Shown here piece after piece: positions 19,387-27,329 of a DNA stretch of 27,329 nt (the first letter of the stretch is position 1; every line of letters begins with the position of its first letter). The notes below the pieces were generated by a model, which saw only the letters and a list, made by a program, of their open reading frames with translations, was not told the DNA's origin and did not search any database. A program made the position numbers and the translations under genes. The DNA comes from Bacillota bacterium (GTDB lineage: Bacteria; Bacillota_E; Symbiobacteriia; Symbiobacteriales; Symbiobacteriaceae), in contig QGVE01000018.1 in assembly GCA_003242675.1 (NCBI GenBank), positions 1-27,329 on the forward strand, read 5' to 3'.

Positions 19387-20004
19387 TTGGCTGATGGCAG
19401 CAACCTGTCCGCACGGCGCACAGCCTCCCCGACCGGGGAGACGCGCATCCATATGGACGACGCGGCCGCCCCGTCGGTGATTGCGGCGGCGGTGGAGCGG
19501 TGCGCCGCCGGACTGATCCACCGGTGCGACGGCCTCGTGGCCCTGTGCATCGGGACCGACCGCTCCATCGGCGACGCCCTGGGGCCGCTGGTGGGAAGCC
19601 GGCTGCAGGGGTCCGTGCCGGACGGCGTCACGGTGCTGGGCACCCTGGACAAGCCCGTCCACGCCGGGAATCTGGCCGATGCGCTGGCCTGGGTGGAGCG
19701 CACGTTCCGGCGCCCCCTCGTGCTGGCCGTGGACGCCTGCCTGGGTCGGGCCGAGTCGGTCGGCTACCTGGCCGTCGGCCCCGGCAGCCTGCGCCCGGGC
19801 GCCGGTGTGAGCAAGTCGCTGCCGCCCGCGGGCGACCTCTACCTCACCGGCGTGGTGAACGTGGGGGGATTCATGGAGTACTTCGTCCTGCAGAACACCC
19901 GGCTCAGCCTGGTCATGCGCATGGCCCAGGTAGCCGCCGCCGGGCTGGAGCAGGGCCTGCGGGCCTTGCACGGGCGCCGGGCGCAGAGCGAAGCGGAGCA
20001 TTGA
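19387..20004 (+). CDS. yyaC: YyaC-like sporulation protein (DUF1256, GPR-protease fold)
   Basis: YyaC belongs to the DUF1256 family, related in fold to the germination protease GPR and hydrogenase-maturation proteases, and is restricted to endospore formers; its substrate is not known. The 205-residue product contains the hallmark stretches LVALCIGTDRSIGDALGPLVG, VTVLGTLDKPVHAGNLADAL, LVLAVDACLGRAESVGYLAVGPGSLRPGAGVSKSLPPAGDL and TGVVNVGGFMEYFVLQNTRLSLVMRMA. Conserved acidic residues in GTDRSIGD and AVDACLG sit where proteases of this fold bind metal. The TTG start has GGAGGG seven bases upstream; homologues suggest the first ~30 residues are variable. It is the only plus-strand gene here and is convergent with the bactofilin gene. 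In Bacillus it adjoins spo0J (parB). Confidence 0.93.
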   Translation: MADGSNLSARRTASPTGETRIHMDDAAAPSVIAAAVERCAAGLIHRCDGLVALCIGTDRSIGDALGPLVGSRLQGSVPDGVTVLGTLDKPVHAGNLADALAWVERTFRRPLVLAVDACLGRAESVGYLAVGPGSLRPGAGVSKSLPPAGDLYLTGVVNVGGFMEYFVLQNTRLSLVMRMAQVAAAGLEQGLRALHGRRAQSEAEH

Positions 20005-20049: not shown

Positions 20050-20463
20050 TCAGTAGCCCTGAGAAGCCTCGCTCTCGGCCGGCTCCTGGCCGTCCGCCTC
20101 GGACATCAGGCTGCGGCCGTAGAAACGGGCCCCCTCGTGGATGACCAGTTGCGCGCAGCGCACATCCCCGTGGAGGCTGGAGCCGGGCAGGAGCTCGACC
20201 TTCCCCGCCACCACAACGTCGCCGTGGATCTCGCCGGCCGTCGCCAGGTTGCGCGCCCGGACGGTCGCCTGGATGTGGCCCTTGGGCCCGATGATCAGGT
20301 CCCCTTCGTGCTCGATCGCGCCCTCCAGGAACCCGTCCACGCGGACGACGCCGGAAGACTGGATCGTCCCGCGGATCCGGGTCCCCTCGCCGATCAGCGT
20401 GTCAATCTTGCCGTGGGACGGGGTTTGCGCTGCGCTGCTCTTGCGACTGCCGAACACGCTCAT
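20050..20463 (-). CDS. Bactofilin-family polymer protein
   Basis: Bactofilins form nucleotide-independent beta-helical filaments that position cell-wall enzymes. The 137-residue protein has a short variable N-terminus (MSVFGSRKSSAAQTPSHGK), a right-handed beta-helix core (TLIGEGTRIRGTIQSSGVVRVDGFLEGAIEHEGDLIIGPKGHIQATVRARNLATAGEIHGDVVVAGKVELLPGSSLHGDVRCAQLVIHEGARFYG) and an acidic tail. The ATG at 20461-20463 overlaps the stop of the upstream M23 gene (ATGA), which fixes the start and indicates coupled translation. Pairing of bactofilin and M23 peptidase genes recurs in many bacteria and usually reflects a functional partnership. Confidence 0.93.
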   Translation of the reverse strand: MSVFGSRKSSAAQTPSHGKIDTLIGEGTRIRGTIQSSGVVRVDGFLEGAIEHEGDLIIGPKGHIQATVRARNLATAGEIHGDVVVAGKVELLPGSSLHGDVRCAQLVIHEGARFYGRSLMSEADGQEPAESEASQGY

Positions 20464-21530
20464 TCCCCCGGTTGCAGTGCTAGGTACGGCTCGGGATCGA
20501 CGGGCACGCCGTTCAGCAGCACTTCGTAGTGCAGGTGCGGCCCGGTGCTCAGGCCGCTGCTGCCGACCCACCCGATGAGGTCGCCCCGCGCCACCTCCTG
20601 CCAGACGGATACGTTCCAGTCCTGGAGGTGGGCGTAGAGCGTCCGGTAGCCGTAGCCGTGGTCGATGATCACACTCCAGCCGTAGCCGCCTTCCAGCCAG
20701 CCGGCGTGGACGACCGTCCCCGCCCCGGTGGCGTAGACCGGGGTCCCGTAATCCTGGCCGAGGTCGATGCCGTCGTGGAACCGCCAGCCGCCGCCGAAGG
20801 GGCTCCAGCGGTACCCGAAGCGATCGGTGATCTCGGCGCCGTAGATCGGCCAGCCGGAAGGCCGGTGCGCCAAGTAGTCCAGCTTGGCCGCCAGCTGGTC
20901 GCGCCCCTCAGCCAGGCTCTTGGCCGAGGCGCGCAGCTCGGCCAGTTGGCCCGCGAGTCGGGCCCGCAGCGCCTGAGCGGTTTCCCGGCTGGAGTCCATC
21001 GAGTCGGGCAGGCGCCCCAGCTTCAGGTCCATCGCCAGGGTGTTGCGCTTGCCCAACACGAAGGGACCGACGTCCTCCGGCAGAATGCTGGCCAGGGTCA
21101 GTCCCGGCACCTGCTGCGCGTAGCTGGTTTCCGACCCGCCGCGCGGCGCCTCTGCTCCGGATGTGCGACGGGAGGAGGCGGAACGGGAGGGAAGGACCTC
21201 CTCCCCCTCCGTCATGTCCGCCAGGTCGCGCTGCAGCTGCCGGATCTCCTGCAGTTCCTGCTCAACCTGCTCGAACGTCGTCCGCATCCGCTCCAGCTCT
21301 TCCTGCTGCAGCCGCGCCTGCTGCTTCAGCGACTCCATCTTTGCGAGCTCCGCCCGAAGGCGGGCGGCTTCCAGCTGGAAGAACCGCAGACCAAAGGCGA
21401 GCGCAGCCACCCCCGCAACGATCAGGACCAGGCCTGCCGCCAGCAGGGCCGGGTAAATGAAAAAGGTGTAGCTACGTCTGTCGGCGGATGGCACGACGAT
21501 GAGCTGCACTCGTCCTGCCCGACGCGGCAC
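20460..21530 (-). CDS. Membrane-anchored M23 metallopeptidase with coiled coil
   Basis: This 356-residue protein should act on peptidoglycan outside the membrane. It has a cytoplasmic VQLIVVPSADRRSYTF segment, one membrane helix (about 24-47), a coiled coil rich in E/Q/L (about 50-105), a variable linker and a C-terminal M23 domain (about 228-350). Zinc ligands are visible: H252 and D256 in FHDGIDLG, H301 in YAHL, and H332/H334 in GPHLHYEV. This layout matches wall endopeptidases that partner bactofilins. The start could be GTG 21528-21530 or GTG 21507-21509; neither ribosome-binding site is strong. It overlaps the bactofilin gene by four bases. It is distinct from the LysM/G5/M23 protein at 7610-8923. 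Confidence 0.92.
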   Translation of the reverse strand: MPRRAGRVQLIVVPSADRRSYTFFIYPALLAAGLVLIVAGVAALAFGLRFFQLEAARLRAELAKMESLKQQARLQQEELERMRTTFEQVEQELQEIRQLQRDLADMTEGEEVLPSRSASSRRTSGAEAPRGGSETSYAQQVPGLTLASILPEDVGPFVLGKRNTLAMDLKLGRLPDSMDSSRETAQALRARLAGQLAELRASAKSLAEGRDQLAAKLDYLAHRPSGWPIYGAEITDRFGYRWSPFGGGWRFHDGIDLGQDYGTPVYATGAGTVVHAGWLEGGYGWSVIIDHGYGYRTLYAHLQDWNVSVWQEVARGDLIGWVGSSGLSTGPHLHYEVLLNGVPVDPEPYLALQPGE

Positions 21531-21651: not shown

Positions 21652-22155
21652 CTACACTTTTCTGTTGCTTATCCCGCGGGCGAGCTCGATCGCCTGCTTC
21701 TCCTCGTCGGTCAGCACGTAGCTGGAGGCCCCGCCGAGGATGGGCTTGGCGTAGGTGCGGCACTCCGACCGGCCGTAGAGCGAGGTCACCACCACGCCGT
21801 TGTCCTGCCCGTCGAGGATGGCGCAGGAGAAGCTGAGGTCCGCGCCCACGTCGGGGAAGGCGCTGTACCGCACGATGCCGACCCGCTGCAGGTATTTCTG
21901 GGAAGCGTTCTCCAGCGCGGTCAGGCGGCGGCGGATGGCCTCCTGCTCCGCCTGCAGCTCGGCGGTGGCCTCCTGCTGCTGGATGAGCAGGTCCTCGAGG
22001 TTGGCGTGGATGTTGCCCTTCAGCAGGCTCCGGTAGCGCCGCAGGAGGACGGACTGGCGCACCAGCACGATGAGCATGATGATGATGGCCAGGATGCAGA
22101 AGCCGAGCGCGGTGAACGCCACGAGCAAGGGGTCCTGCTGGAAAAGGAATGCCAC
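21652..22155 (-). CDS. DUF4446 membrane protein, parB-neighbourhood family
   Basis: The 167-residue product has one N-terminal membrane helix (about 8-32, LLVAFTALGFCILAIIIMLIVLV), a coiled-coil stretch (about 50-85, LLIQQQEATAELQAEQEAIRRRLTALE) and a C-terminal domain RVGIVRYSAFPDVGADLSFSCAILDGQDNGVVVTSLYGRSECRTYAKPILGG, the DUF4446 signature. Its function is unknown; the family is common beside parAB in Firmicutes. The GTG at 22153-22155 has GGGAGG about nine bases upstream. A longer frame reaching 22281 is rejected because its first residues (MFHVEH) are a translation of the first parS palindrome. Confidence 0.88.
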   Translation of the reverse strand: MAFLFQQDPLLVAFTALGFCILAIIIMLIVLVRQSVLLRRYRSLLKGNIHANLEDLLIQQQEATAELQAEQEAIRRRLTALENASQKYLQRVGIVRYSAFPDVGADLSFSCAILDGQDNGVVVTSLYGRSECRTYAKPILGGASSYVLTDEEKQAIELARGISNRKV

Positions 22156-22193
22156 CGGGAAGGCCTCCCTGTTGTTGACAGTATCCGGACAAT

Positions 22194-22215
22194 CCGGGAG
22201 CACGTGGGCTCCCGG
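22194..22215 (-). other. Palindromic hairpin in the leader of the DUF4446 gene
   Basis: An 8-bp GC stem (22194-22201 with 22208-22215) surrounds a six-base loop. It contains CACGTG, the core of the neighbouring palindromes, but matches the parS-type consensus at only about half of its positions, so I do not count it as a site. No T-tract follows. It could be a weak terminator of the upstream operon or an mRNA structure. Confidence 0.4.
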
Positions 22216-22280
22216 GTCGGTGAATGTCGGCAAGCGCTGACTTGGCAGCTGGGCTCGGCCTGCGTGTTCCACGTGGAACA

Positions 22281-22661
22281 CTGCGGATCGACGTACCTAA
22301 ATGAATTACGCTGCGGCCTGCTGAGATCCTTTACGGTTATTTGCAAGTTCACTGCGTTGGGACCGGCTGGGCGAAGGACCCGCTGGTGACCACCGGACCT
22401 GGGGGTACCCCGCGGCTCGGGCCGGCGTCGGCGCGCGTGTCCGGGCGGTGCGGGGTGGTGCCTGTCGGTTGCGATATGCGCATGCGCTCGGTCAGGTTCG
22501 CCCCGGCGATGTTCCGTGGGGAACGCGTCCTGGGGTTTCTTGGGTGGCGGCCGCGCGGGCGTGCATCCCGGGCGGCCGTTTCGCGCGGCGACCATCCCAT
22601 GGGCCTGCCGCTCTACAAACCGGATTATCGGTGCGCTCCGCTCTAGCCGATTTGGTGCGAG
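22281..22661. other. Longest site-free gap of the array (381 bp), no gene seen
   Basis: Between the first and second sites there is no convincing coding sequence: frames are short, lack ribosome-binding sites and show no family motif. The left part (about 22295-22350) is relatively AT-rich and could carry a promoter for the DUF4446 gene, but I cannot identify -35/-10 elements with confidence. A degenerate palindrome lies at 22510-22525. Confidence 0.5.
22510..22525. repeat. Degenerate parS-like palindrome (probable decayed site)
   Basis: TGTTCCGTGGGGAACG keeps both outer arms (TGTTCC and GGAAC) but has four differences from the array consensus, three of them in the central ACGT. It lies in the longest gap and exactly 152 bp left of the next site, twice the preferred ~76-bp interval, which favours a decayed member over chance. 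Confidence 0.5.
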
Positions 22662-22894
22662 TGTTCCACGTGGAACACGTCGTTGCCGCGCCGGCCGGCG
22701 CATCGGTGCACTCGCTTTCAACATCACCCAGTACGCCAGTGTTCCACGTGGAACACTGCCTGCGGGTCGAGGTCTTCAGCAATTTCTTTGGCCGTAGGGG
22801 GCCGCAGGTGGAGTCGGCCCGTTGCATTGCTTGGAGGACGCAGCGAGCGCACAGCTGCCCGTTGGTTCGCGCCCCAGGCAGCAACCCGGGGGTG

Positions 22895-23544
22895 AGTTCC
22901 ACGTGGAACACGAAGGAGGAATGTCCAGCCGAACTGCCGCTGGGGCCCCGATGTGTTCGAGTCCGCAGGTGCGCTCGATGTGGGATGTTCCTGAGTCTGG
23001 AGGGCGCAGATCTCTTGCTGTTCCACGTGGAACACCGCGGACTGCTGAACCGAATTAGGCCCTGAGACACCAACAGGGCGTGCGCCAGGACGCTGTCCGG
23101 GTTGTTCCACGTGGAACTCTTCCTCATATAGTCCGTGCAGTAATAGGGTGGTCGATCTCCTGCCTCGAAGCGCCTCGGTGTTCCACGTGGAACAGTGCGC
23201 CACCGCTGAACTTCAGGTGCGTTCCCCTGATGTGGCCGGAAAGAGGTGTCGTGCGCTTCGGTGCCTCGGGGCGGTGGGGCCTTCAGCGCTGTTCCACGTA
23301 GAACACAGCAACTTGGAGAAGCCCACCAGACCGTTTCACCCTACAGCCAGGCCTGGGTGCCTTCGCCGGCATTTGCTCACCTCGCGGCCGCGGGCCGCTC
23401 TGTGGTGGCGCGGAGTACGCTAGCTGCGGCCCAGCAAGACGAATGGGGTCTTCACAGTGACGTGTTCCACGTGGAACTTTGCTCAAGAGTGGTGTGCCGT
23501 AATTAGGCCCTGCTGTGCGTAGTGCCGTCGTTCCATGTGGAACA
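22895..23544. repeat. Left cluster of variant parS sites
   Basis: Five of the seven sites in this stretch deviate: 22895 (first base A), 23103 and 23463 (last base T), 23290 (G11 to A), 23529 (first base C and C8 to T, the only site in the array with an altered ACGT core). Each keeps one intact 8-base half-site. The exact sites here are 23019 and 23179. Confidence 0.85.
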
Positions 23545-24991
23545 TTCGCTTAGGTCTTGCCCCCGCTCGATCTCTGGCGGGCCGCCGGGCCACCGCGGCT
23601 CCGAAGCCTGGCGCAACATCAGGTTTGATCCATCGCGGCTCCTTGTCAGCGCCGAAGGGACATGCCGGGGCCCTGGACGAGGGCCCCGGTCCGCCGTTTC
23701 GTCGCTTCCGCCTCCCCCATCGGTCGCCGTTTGTGTAGGCCCCGCCCACGCCGGGGATGTTCCACGTGGAACACCGTCGCGCACACAGGCAGCCCAGGTG
23801 GGGCGCATGTAGCCTTGGGCGTTGTCCAACAAGATCCGACGCCTTTACGTTGGTCGCCAAGCGGTCCCCGGCCTGTCGGTACGGCGCGGCTCACCGGACC
23901 GGCGGCCTGCAAGGGTTGTGTCCAAGCTGGCAGACTTCGGGGGCCTGATCACTGTTCCACGTGGAACACTTCCCCGTGAAGACCAGTGCGCCTCAGTGGA
24001 CCGACTGTTCCACGTGGAACATCTTGCATCGATCAGGCGGTCCTGCCGGCTGCACCGGCCAGGTCCCGCAGGCACTGAGACGAGGGACTTGCCCCCGCCT
24101 CCTCATCCTATCGCGCCGGTCGGCAACAGACGGGGGCACCCGCAAGCTTTCCTTTGAACGCCCTTCGTTGACCGACCGCTGGCTGCCCGACCTGTGCGAT
24201 GTTCCACGTGGAACACCCAGTCCGGGTGCGCCTGCGAGGCATTTCCCAGGCCGCCCTTCCCCGCGTGGACGCCTGTTCCACGTGGAACACTGCTCGAAGG
24301 CCTTTCGACTCACCAGCCGACAGACCTCTGCGTTGCGGCTCGCCTCTCGCACCTCTCTCTTCCACTTGGGAGGTCCCCTTGACGCAGTCCTTTCGCCACC
24401 TCGCTCGAGTCGGCGAGATCATCACACTGCCTTCCGGGCTGTTCCACGTGGAACACTACTACCCTGCCTTCGCACCTGTTCTTCAGGCTAGATGTTGCGC
24501 CTGGGCGGTAGCGCGGCGCTGTTCCGCGGAGGCTCCGGCATGATGTTCCACGTGGAACACTGCACTCGGTGTCCGCATCACTCCCTGCAGCCCAGCAGTC
24601 CAGAGCGGGCGATTCTACCACTGTTCCACGTGGAACACGACTCACAAACCAATCAACGGCCAGTCGCCTGAAACCGTGCCCGCAAGGCTCCACGTGTCAG
24701 GCCCCCGGGCGTGTGGGCCGCCGTTCGGCGGCTGCCCAAACGAACTGGAATACTTCCAGCACGTTTCGGCCCACTGTTCCACGTGGAACACAACCGTGAG
24801 ATGCTGCTCGCAGTAACTCACCTCGCCCTGACCGCTGCTCTTCATCTCAACGGGCTTCTGGAGGAGCTGCCTGCCAATCTTCCCTCTGCACTAGCGAGAT
24901 ACTGCGCCGCTGTTCCACGTGGAACATCGCTCTTCACGCGGTCTTCTCCTTATAGGTCGGTGACGGGCGGACTGGCGCCGGAGCAGAGCTG

Positions 24992-25610
24992 CGTTCCACG
25001 TAGAACACTGGTGCAAACTCAGCCTCATGGATGGTACCGTTGCCTCGGTGGTGCCGAGCGGCGTCACTGTTCCACGTGGAACATCGTCCCGCCCGAGGGC
25101 CGGTGCTCGGCATCCCAGGCAATTGGGCCACGAACAATGCAACACCACTCGCCGTGGCGAGACACATCCGGCGTGCACGACGCTCGTATTCCCCGACCCC
25201 ACCGGCCACTGCCATCCCCCTGTTCCGTTGCGCCCGCTGTTCCACGTGGAACACCGATATTGCGGCCGCCTTCGGGCCACTTCCGCGGCAACATGACCTG
25301 CGCCATATGCCTGCCACTGTTCCACGTGGAACACAGCTCCACATCCCGTCGACTCCTTTTAACAGCAGCCCGAAGTGCAGCGACTAACCCGACGCCCTGG
25401 TGAAGTCACACCATGACAGGGAGCACACTCAAGGTCGGCACCGGCTTCTGTTCTACGTGGAACATCGCCAGGACCCCAAGAACCTGACCACCGTGTACCA
25501 TACGTGACCCACGATCCGTGTACCACGTGGAACAGTTCGCCGATCGCGCCCAAAGCCCCGAACCCTCAGAAAGGCGCTGGCTTCATGAGCCAGATGTTCT
25601 ACGTGGAACA
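24992..25610. repeat. Central cluster of variant parS sites
   Basis: Variants at 24992 (first base C and G11 to A, the only site with neither half intact), 25449 and 25595 (C6 to T) and 25519 (T4 to A) are interspersed with exact sites at 25068, 25238 and 25318. C6-to-T and G11-to-A are the same change seen from opposite strands of the palindrome, so one position is the recurrent point of variation. Confidence 0.85.
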
Positions 25611-27101
25611 CTGCCGCCACGAGCCCCTCAACCTCTGCACAACGCGGACGGCCTGCAGGTCCACCGCGCCGTATGGCTCGCTTCCCACGGTGTTCCACGT
25701 GGAACATCTGGTTCAGGCACGCTACTCATTACACACCGCACACTGCGGGACAGGCTCTGTCTACAAGGTCCCTAGGCCACTCTACCGCAACCGCCAGGCG
25801 CAGACGGCAGAGACATCACAACACCGGCCGGCTAGCAGCCGGCTTCGCCGCGTTGTTTCACGCCACGCCCGCTCTACGCCAGCGGCGCGACAGGAGCACG
25901 TCAGGTGCGGCTTCGCGATGTTCCACGTGGAACACTCCGAACCAGTGCTGCCTCTTACCCTGAACTCTGCCGACCAGGCCCAATCCTTCGCCACTGATGT
26001 TCCACGTGGAACAGTGCCTCTTGCTCCGGTTCTCTTCTAGCACTCACCCAATCCGCCTCGCCAACCCCCCTCCACTGTTCCACGTGGAACACCACGACAC
26101 CGACCCGCCTGGCGCACCCGCCGCCTCACATGGGCCATGGTCCGGCCGTGTGCCAGCCCACCGCAGAGCAGATCTGCGGTCGGCTCAGGCGCCGTTCCTT
26201 CGCACGGGCAACCCAACTGGCCTGGTGTTCCACGTGGAACATCAGGTCTCTCCAGCCGATTCCCTTGCCACACCGCCCAACCCCGGCGCACCGCAACCGG
26301 CGAAGCAAGGGCCTGTCAACACACTCAACGACCGTGACCGCCACTCTCGCGCTAGTGCCACGGGCCCGCCCGTGTTCCACGTGGAACACACAGCCTCTAG
26401 ACGAATCCGCGCCTCTCCCCGCGGCCTCCCCGGGCAAATCGAAACTCTGGTCCAAACCGGACCGCTCCCCTCCCCTACCCGGCAAGACGTGTCTCCGAGT
26501 GCCGGGCATGGTGTTTCAGACGCCTTTCCCGCACCGCCGAGGGGCAGTGTTCCACGTGGAACAACGCCACACCGTGCTGGACAACCACTGTTCCACGTGG
26601 AACACATTCGCCAAGCACAGCCACAAGCGCCTTTCCGGAGGGGCCCCACCTTTCCTCGTCTCCTAGAACCCTATTTTCGGGGACGGTGCCGCTGTTCTCC
26701 GCAAGTGCTCATTCCCCACCAGGGTACAGGCACATCCACTGTTCCACGTGGAACATCTCGCCGCCACTCGACCCCATCACGCCCTGCGTGCTCTGTTCAC
26801 CACGCGCGGCGTTCCAGAGCGCCTCCCATCGGCCCGGCACCTGAGGCCGTCTCGGATGTTCCACGTGGAACATCAGTCGACTGCTTGGGAATGAGCCAAA
26901 ACCGCCACGCGACCGGCGAATCGCCCGCGCTGTTCCACGTGGAACATCAACCGTACACTCCATCGCTGACCGAGTTCACCCCTGACTGTCCTCCCGGTCA
27001 AGACAGCCCCGTTCACAAACCGCCGCCCACACGGGCGTGCCCGTGTTCCACGTGGAACATCGCCCCATCCTTCCAGAGTTGCCTACCCAGCCATGCTCAC
27101 A

Positions 27102-27246
27102 CGTTCCACGTGGAACACCCCGCAGCGGACGCTGTGTACATTCGTCCCACTCGCCCCACCGGCCCGAGTTCCACGTGGAACATCGTCCACCCCAGCACCA
27201 CGGGCTGTTCGGCCGCCTGAACACCCCCGCTGTTCTACGTGGAACA
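27102..27246. repeat. Right-end variant parS sites with short spacing
   Basis: The last three sites, 27102 (first base C), 27167 (first base A) and 27231 (C6 to T), are all variants and are spaced 65 and 64 bp, closer than the array average. No further site occurs in the remaining 83 bases, so the array may end here or continue outside the window. Confidence 0.85.
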
Positions 27247-27329
27247 CCCCGTCGCGCGCCGCATTCTGATAAGCACGTGCCGCGGCCGCCGACCACGGGC
27301 ATACCCTACCTTCCATCACCCCTCCGAGT

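Follow-up and report, generated by a model that had tools for sequence, protein, structure and literature searches.

A dense array of parS-type palindromes

We analyzed a stretch of 27,329 nt from a Bacillota bacterium of the family Symbiobacteriaceae (GCA_003242675.1, contig QGVE01000018.1, forward strand, positions 1–27,329), which is called the window in the following. Its right end is occupied by an array of 42 palindromes of 16 bp that match the consensus of parS, the DNA mark to which ParB proteins bind when sister chromosomes are separated. The slot holding the array is bounded on the left by a gene for a DUF4446 protein (21652..22155, minus strand; PF14584). Pfam searches identified DUF4446, yyaC (DUF1256), rpsF and ssb among the flanking genes, as named in the initial annotation. 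The start of the DUF4446 gene was inferred by comparison with relatives to be the GTG at 22155.

The whole window was searched on both strands for TGTTCCACGTGGAACA with up to three mismatches. This gave 42 matches (30 exact, 10 with one mismatch and 2 with two), all of them within 22265–27246. In 100 shuffles of the window that preserved dinucleotides the mean number of matches was 0.07 and the maximum was 1. The count and the span of the near-identical palindromes given in the initial annotation were reproduced exactly. The consensus letter was present at 658 of the 672 site positions (97.9%); of the 14 mismatches, seven fell on the end positions 1 and 16 of the palindrome and seven on positions 4, 6, 8 and 11. 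TGTTCCACGTGGAACA differs by one base from the Bacillus subtilis consensus TGTTNCACGTGAAACA reported in PMC7022226.

All sites are listed on the plus strand, the array (22265..27246) as a whole without a strand. Exact copies of the consensus are site 1 (22265..22280, 110 bp upstream of the DUF4446 start), sites 2 (22662..22677), 3 (22740..22755), 5 (23019..23034) and 7 (23179..23194), sites 11 (23758..23773), 12 (23953..23968), 13 (24006..24021), 14 (24200..24215), 15 (24274..24289), 16 (24440..24455), 17 (24544..24559), 18 (24622..24637), 19 (24775..24790) and 20 (24911..24926), sites 22 (25068..25083), 23 (25238..25253) and 24 (25318..25333), and sites 28 (25691..25706), 29 (25919..25934), 30 (25998..26013), 31 (26076..26091), 32 (26226..26241), 33 (26373..26388), 34 (26548..26563), 35 (26589..26604), 36 (26740..26755), 37 (26857..26872), 38 (26931..26946) and 39 (27044..27059). 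One mismatch is found in sites 4 (22895..22910), 6 (23103..23118), 8 (23290..23305), 9 (23463..23478), 25 (25449..25464), 26 (25519..25534), 27 (25595..25610), 40 (27102..27117), 41 (27167..27182) and 42 (27231..27246, the last in the window), and two mismatches in sites 10 (23529..23544) and 21 (24992..25007). The distance from start to start varies between 41 and 397 bp (mean 121, median 104), which leaves spacers of 25–381 bp.

The window ends 83 bp beyond the last site and does not reach parB; these 83 bases gave only chance-level matches to the parB regions of relatives. Because sites extend up to the parB stop codon in the relatives, the array probably continues past the end of the window, and 42 sites are probably a minimum.

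The same slot in relatives

The DUF4446 protein of the window is identical at 166 of 167 positions to a database protein and at 122 of 146 positions to a protein named Symbiobacterium thermophilum. By these comparisons the window DNA belongs to a relative of S. thermophilum. The DUF4446 protein of the relative L113 (genome G003) matches the same named protein at 146 of 147 positions, and this relative was therefore taken as S. thermophilum.

We mapped the slot in eight relatives and counted 16-mers with up to three mismatches. On the metagenome-assembled contig JAMNXV010000192.1 (L001) the order is mnmE-mnmG-rsmG-parA-parB-array-DUF4446-M23-bactofilin-yyaC, and the part from DUF4446 to yyaC is the mirror image of the window. 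The DUF4446 protein of the window is 80% identical to that of L001. Between parB and DUF4446 there were 21 sites in L001, 21 in L114, 14 in L113 and 10 in L002. In all four relatives parA-parB lies directly beside the array. In L001, L113 and L114 a site begins 2 bp beyond the stop codon of parB, and in L002 a site with three mismatches starts 7 bp past it. The site nearest to DUF4446 is 112, 107 and 119 bp upstream of the gene start in L001, L113 and L002, respectively.

These fixed positions also bear on another explanation, namely that the array is a sink for ParB or a regulator of parAB and its neighbors, either by titration or by spreading that silences the region between parB and DUF4446. 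Iterons act in plasmid copy control and offer an analogy. Sites 107–119 bp upstream of DUF4446 in four species and 2–7 bp past the parB stop would suit such a role, as would the up to 314 dimers that the array binds in the model described below. But 42 sites are not obviously needed for regulation, and we regard this explanation as improbable.

Dense arrays are absent from the other four relatives. In L116, L117 and L118 the slot has two sites each; L115 has none there and four upstream of parA. Further parS-like sites upstream of parA were also seen in L116 (8405–10308) and L117 (7615–9576). Judged from these loci, the position of the parS sites differs across the group, with a few sites upstream of parA in the more distant relatives.

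The mean spacing was 121 bp in the window, 149 bp in L001, 168 bp in L114 and 158 bp in L002. In L113 it was 140 bp when a gap of 1.97 kb between two sites was excluded, which harbors a transposase gene (DDE_Tnp_1; L113:8311–9687). Across the sequenced arrays the number of sites, compared among related genomes as the initial annotation had proposed, varies fourfold (10, 14, 21 and 21 against 42), while the mean spacing varies little (121–168 bp).

One ParB and one cluster close to dnaA

Genome-wide statements refer to the relatives G001–G004; the genome of the window organism is represented by the window alone. Each of the four genomes has a single match to the ParB family above the cut-off (TIGR00180), and it lies beside the array. 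For the ParB proteins of L001 and L113, alignments with Spo0J and ParB chains of solved structure gave best E values of 7.7e-62 and 1.8e-60. A helix-turn-helix stretch is visible in these alignments, and so are GERRWRA and ENLQREDLNP, which we take to be the motifs of the cytidine triphosphate (CTP) pocket. Binding sites for Noc were considered and rejected: there is one ParB-family protein per relative genome, and the ParB proteins of two relatives score 246 and 248 bits against a Noc cut-off of 315; no search was made for the Noc site.

We counted the 14-bp core of the palindrome genome-wide with up to one mismatch and used the reversed pattern as a control. The array contained 14 of 14 core sites in G003, which is a single contig of 3.57 Mb, 20 of 21 in G002 and 9 of 9 in G004, with 0, 1 and 1 matches of the reversed pattern in G003, G002 and G004. 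In G001 it contained 20 of 23. The two arrays with 21 sites, L001 and L114, account for the values of 20/23 and 20/21. Nearly all close matches are inside the array. In the three array-bearing genomes searched for it, G001, G002 and G003, the gene dnaA is 8.7–8.8 kb beyond the array (the G003 contig was taken as circular). The window does not include dnaA, but its gene order matches that of these three genomes and by proxy places its array near oriC and dnaA as well. The reading as a chromosomal centromere near parAB and oriC is well supported by the relatives, with parAB adjoining, one ParB, dnaA close by and few sites elsewhere.

It would also be conceivable that a regulator unrelated to ParB binds the palindromes or that they form a selfish family of palindromic repeats, since a motif alone is no proof of ParB binding. 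We consider this most improbable: hardly any close match lies outside the slot next to the sole ParB gene, and the palindrome is one base from the consensus TGTTCCACGTGGAACG reported to be bound by ParB of Myxococcus xanthus in vitro (PMC3899335). A plasmid origin of the array was rejected as well: megablast against 72,556 plasmid records returned no match for it, and the locus has a chromosomal gene order.

An array of this size is unusual. Among G001 and 40 relatives 18 of 41 genomes contained the exact core at all, with counts of 19, 17, 12 and 9, followed by values of at most 3. The looser pattern GTTYCACGTGRAAC matched in 274 of 299 genomes of the phylum, with 19 exact matches in G001 and 8 in the next highest genome; this draw included G001, not G002–G004. 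Only L001 and L002 had at least 9 core sites in 5 kb among 80 DUF4446 loci of the genome collection. Clusters of at least 20 sites within a few kb are formed by the window array (42 in 5.0 kb) and by those of L001 and L114 (21 each).

Viral contigs were inspected separately. On 15 stretches (L121–L135) two exact parS cores lie 49–78 bp apart, and L134 has five sites within 4.5 kb. These pairs represent phage parS loci or misbinned host loci. None of the viral stretches examined had more than five sites (up to one mismatch), so dense arrays on viral contigs were rejected.

Non-coding character and conservation of the sites

The array looks non-coding, in line with the initial annotation, which had called it apparently gene-free. 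The contrast in G+C content between the three codon phases averaged 0.12 in the array (maximum 0.23) against 0.43 in the gene part of the window. One open reading frame of the array, of 407 codons, was sent to Pfam and matched no family at E ≤ 0.001. In a search of 5.8 billion proteins its sole match was a 99% identical protein from another source, so a second assembly seems to contain the array as well. A hidden gene was not supported by any of these results.

The 41 spacers of the window were no more alike among themselves than shuffled sequences (best local score 29, mean shuffled maximum 28.6). Window spacers gave no signal against those of L001 (27 against 29 for shuffled spacers), and against L113 only the spacer next to DUF4446 stood out (36 against 28). 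For comparison, fourfold synonymous sites of the window and L001 are 59% identical in DUF4446 (75 sites) and 79% in ssb (67 sites). As sites with 98% consensus letters stand among unrelated spacers, the sites were kept while the DNA between them was turned over. A recent tandem duplication was rejected because of the unlike spacers. A plasmid iteron or a sopC-type centromere consists of identical tandem units including the spacers, and with spacers of 25–381 bp that resemble each other no more than shuffled ones this type was rejected too.

We also considered that the locus is a parS centromere with mostly redundant extra sites, which accumulate and are kept in a tolerant slot and whose number barely affects occupancy or fitness. 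The wide variation of site number among relatives (10, 14, 21, 21, 42) and the transposase gene inside the S. thermophilum-like array fit this explanation, as do the nearly equal peak occupancies of 14 and 42 sites in the limited-pool model (see below). However, if sites accumulated neutrally, both the 98% consensus of the sites amid unrelated spacers and the similar mean spacing of the five arrays should have become blurred. Redundancy of the extra sites appears possible but doubtful to us.

The bases flanking the sites were tested at eight positions outside the palindrome in four arrays (raw p values). With both sides pooled, C or T was favored at the second base outside the palindrome in the window (p = 4e-6), L001 (p = 2e-7) and L114 (p = 4e-6), with p = 0.055 in L113. 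This hints at a recognized site that may be longer than 16 bp.

Predicted ParB loading on the array

The palindromes match the parS consensus and fill a slot beside parB in four relatives, and for these reasons we consider the array likely to be a chromosomal centromere, which ParB-CTP clamps would enter at many points so as to fill a single short stretch. By context its identity as parS is near certain, while the binding of ParB is a prediction. The 42 sites are a real, conserved and unusually large chromosomal parS array. According to PMC10387095, ParB-CTP clamps load at parS, slide, obstruct one another and leave mainly on hydrolysis. In the window organism parB would lie just beyond the end of the window, and its product would bind the palindromes and load as CTP clamps at many of them simultaneously, so that a short block of DNA is filled. 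This block would be the cargo for ParA and the loading point for SMC-ScpAB.

We solved the mean-field, single-occupancy sliding equation of PMC10387095 with its own parameters on the window coordinates. The loading rate was free, and the picture changed little when lambda was varied between 300 and 2000 bp. When ParB was in excess and each site loaded at 10 koff, one site held 9 dimers with a peak occupancy of 12%, 14 sites in the layout of G003 held 80 dimers (51%) and 42 sites held 173 dimers (64%). At 1000 koff, the highest rate tried, the 42-site array bound 314 dimers and an isolated site 66. The total bound leveled off with array length. Since neighboring clamps block one another in the model, each array site yields only 16–47% of an isolated site (0.47, 0.27 and 0.16 at 10, 30 and 100 koff).

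The initial annotation had proposed that a dense array loads many clamps at once and that collisions between them limit the spreading of ParB. Both the many clamps and the collisions emerge from the model, but the limited reach does not. Occupancy outside the array falls much as it does for one site (at 30 koff it is 0.54 at the edge and 0.13 at a distance of 1 kb), so that collisions cut the yield per site and not the reach.

When the pool was limited to 360 dimers, 42 sites placed at intervals of 10 kb bound more dimers in total, with at most 8 per 6.5 kb, whereas the array held 130–258 dimers per 6.5 kb at 10–300 koff. The model thus predicts that packing yields a block that is compact and well filled although each site loads slowly, and selection may act on this benefit. 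Peak occupancies with the limited pool were nearly equal, at 0.45, 0.69, 0.87 and 0.95 for 14 sites and 0.52, 0.71, 0.86 and 0.93 for 42 sites, which speaks against a simple rule that occupancy rises with site number. Beyond about 14 sites the model predicts that the block grows in length and is no better filled.

Several points weigh against the centromere reading with its filled block. The step from 14 to 42 sites brought no gain in peak occupancy with the limited pool (0.87 and 0.86 at 100 koff). The model takes its parameters from Caulobacter crescentus (lambda 710 bp, 20-bp lattice, 360 dimers) and leaves bridging out of account. In other bacteria one parS is often enough, according to two reviews that also speak for redundancy (PMC7333895, PMC7022226), and the array may exceed the need. 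At two mismatches G001 had 43 core matches, 21 of them in the array, although the 14 matches of the reversed control soften this point. ParB binding, stimulation of the CTPase and the role in segregation are predictions from sequence for the window organism. Finally, ScpA was found in three of the four genomes G001–G004 and was not found in G004.

The last point also concerns the possibility that the array is chiefly a loading platform for SMC-ScpAB, where one dense loading point near oriC would avoid SMC collisions. In B. subtilis several distant parS sites are reported to hamper folding at raised SMC levels, which was read as the result of collisions (PMC8357415). In the relatives close matches are concentrated almost entirely in a single cluster, and three of the four have ScpA, which fits this role. 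A single site would, however, equally avoid collisions without a need for 42 copies, and a search aimed at ScpA and not at SMC itself found none in G004. We think it rather unlikely that SMC loading is the chief role of the array.

Comparison with known parS arrangements

Dense chromosomal parS clusters have a precedent. For M. xanthus a cluster of 22 parS sites is reported that spans 3 kb and lies some 4 kb upstream of parA (PMC3899335); another count gives 24 sites about 30 kb from ori (PMC3778016). The ParB profile of this species is described as largely one peak over the parS cluster (PMC10387095). The window array shares with it the dense single chromosomal cluster near parAB, a palindrome one base different (TGTTCCACGTGGAACG and TGTTCCACGTGGAACA), a similar spacing (a mean of about 145 bp follows from the published span, PMC3899335) and a bactofilin gene, which is part of the parAB operon there (PMC3899335, PMC3778016). 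Unlike M. xanthus with its 22–24 sites, it has at least 42, in a different phylum. Its slot is between parB and DUF4446 and not upstream of parA, and the Symbiobacterium relatives form a natural series from 10 to 42 sites.

The initial annotation had stated that chromosomal parS sites are usually few and scattered. This is contradicted by PMC8357415, in which chromosomal parS sites are said to cluster for the most part and to be scattered only in a few lineages, Bacilli among them. That dense clusters are known from plasmids only does not agree with the 22 sites within 3 kb of M. xanthus (PMC3899335). For B. subtilis 10 parS sites are reported, 8 of them in the ori domain (PMC7022226). The window array has the 16-bp palindrome, the Spo0J/ParB-family protein and the position near oriC in common with the ordinary parS sets of Firmicutes, but those consist of few sites that are far apart.

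In sopC of the F plasmid many ParB-type sites lie in tandem beside the par operon, as they do here. The array differs from sopC by its chromosomal-type site, its unrelated and uneven spacers and its chromosomal locus beside the origin block. In Streptomyces parS sites are spread over hundreds of kb, whereas they are packed into 5 kb here. A high number of parS sites near the origin is shared with Streptomyces coelicolor and Listeria innocua, for which 20–23 are given (PMC7333895).

The arrangement had been put forward as undescribed. Its kind, a dense chromosomal parS cluster, is known from M. xanthus; its size, lineage, fixed slot and natural size series appear to be new. The array has about twice as many sites as that of M. 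xanthus, and among the Symbiobacterium arrays the spacing is similar while the number varies fourfold. We found no paper on parS arrays in Symbiobacterium in the open-licence literature, and the tables of Livny et al. 2007, reportedly the main parS survey, may well count S. thermophilum.

That a similarly dense layout of almost the same palindrome also occurs in Myxococcus points to convergence on a shared physical solution. Tentatively, Symbiobacteria and myxobacteria could have independently turned a point-like parS into a regional centromere, that is, a non-coding block of several kb in which a spacing of 120–170 bp is held, strength is tuned by block length and clamps fill the whole block; the available indications make this an idea to consider rather than the expected outcome. 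A review from 2020 asks why parS number varies when one site often suffices and what drives clustering, and it quotes 20–23 parS sites as the high end (PMC7333895). One slot with 10, 14, 21, 21 and at least 42 sites provides a natural series for ParB occupancy, ParA-driven movement and SMC loading, which the distant relatives extend down to two sites (L116, L117, L118) or none (L115). One member of the series is S. thermophilum, which is cultured. If the array lets ParB rings fill one short block, it would serve as a natural experiment on the reason why bacteria retain many parS sites.

Neighboring genes and further observations

Left of the DUF4446 gene an open reading frame for an M23 peptidase (20460..21530, minus strand) comes next in the conserved block, followed by one for a bactofilin (20050..20571, minus strand; PF04519) and by yyaC (19387..20004, plus strand; PF06866). 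As listed, the bactofilin frame overlaps the M23 frame, and its true start may lie further in. Both were found in six of the eight mapped relatives; the M23 frame was not found in L002 and L117, and the bactofilin was not found in L002 or in L117, where the available stretch extends only a little past DUF4446. The bactofilin and M23 peptidase genes (20050–21530 in the window) adjoin the parABS slot. For M. xanthus, co-transcription of the bactofilin gene bacM with parAB has been reported, though it is other bactofilins, BacNOP, that position ParABS there (PMC3899335, PMC5703909). The only known RNAs in the window are two tRNAs.

A spacing of about 78 bp appeared to be favored in the window (p = 0.005 against jittered spacings; 12 of 41 spacings are 74–84 bp), which is suggestive but unproven. 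In L001 a spacing of about 82.5 bp was favored (p = 0.016), and no such preference was present in L113 and L114. Helical phasing was rejected for the window (best R 0.20, p = 0.66) and was not significant in pooled sets; among the six sets tested L114 alone gave p = 0.02, near 10.25 bp.

The GC skew drifts in one direction along the arrays of the window (22156–27329), L001, L113 and L114, from about 0 to +0.1 near DUF4446 to about -0.2 to -0.3 near parB. It stays near 0 in the short array of L002. The drift could be due to read-through transcription from parB or to replication bias in unconstrained DNA.

Gene callers translate parS as the peptide FHVEH and similar peptides. Two proteins from this locus are present in public databases: one of 407 amino acids (P0112, window 25997–27220) that is probably spurious, and a DUF4446 protein of 209 amino acids (P0002, window 21652–22281) that is probably over-long.

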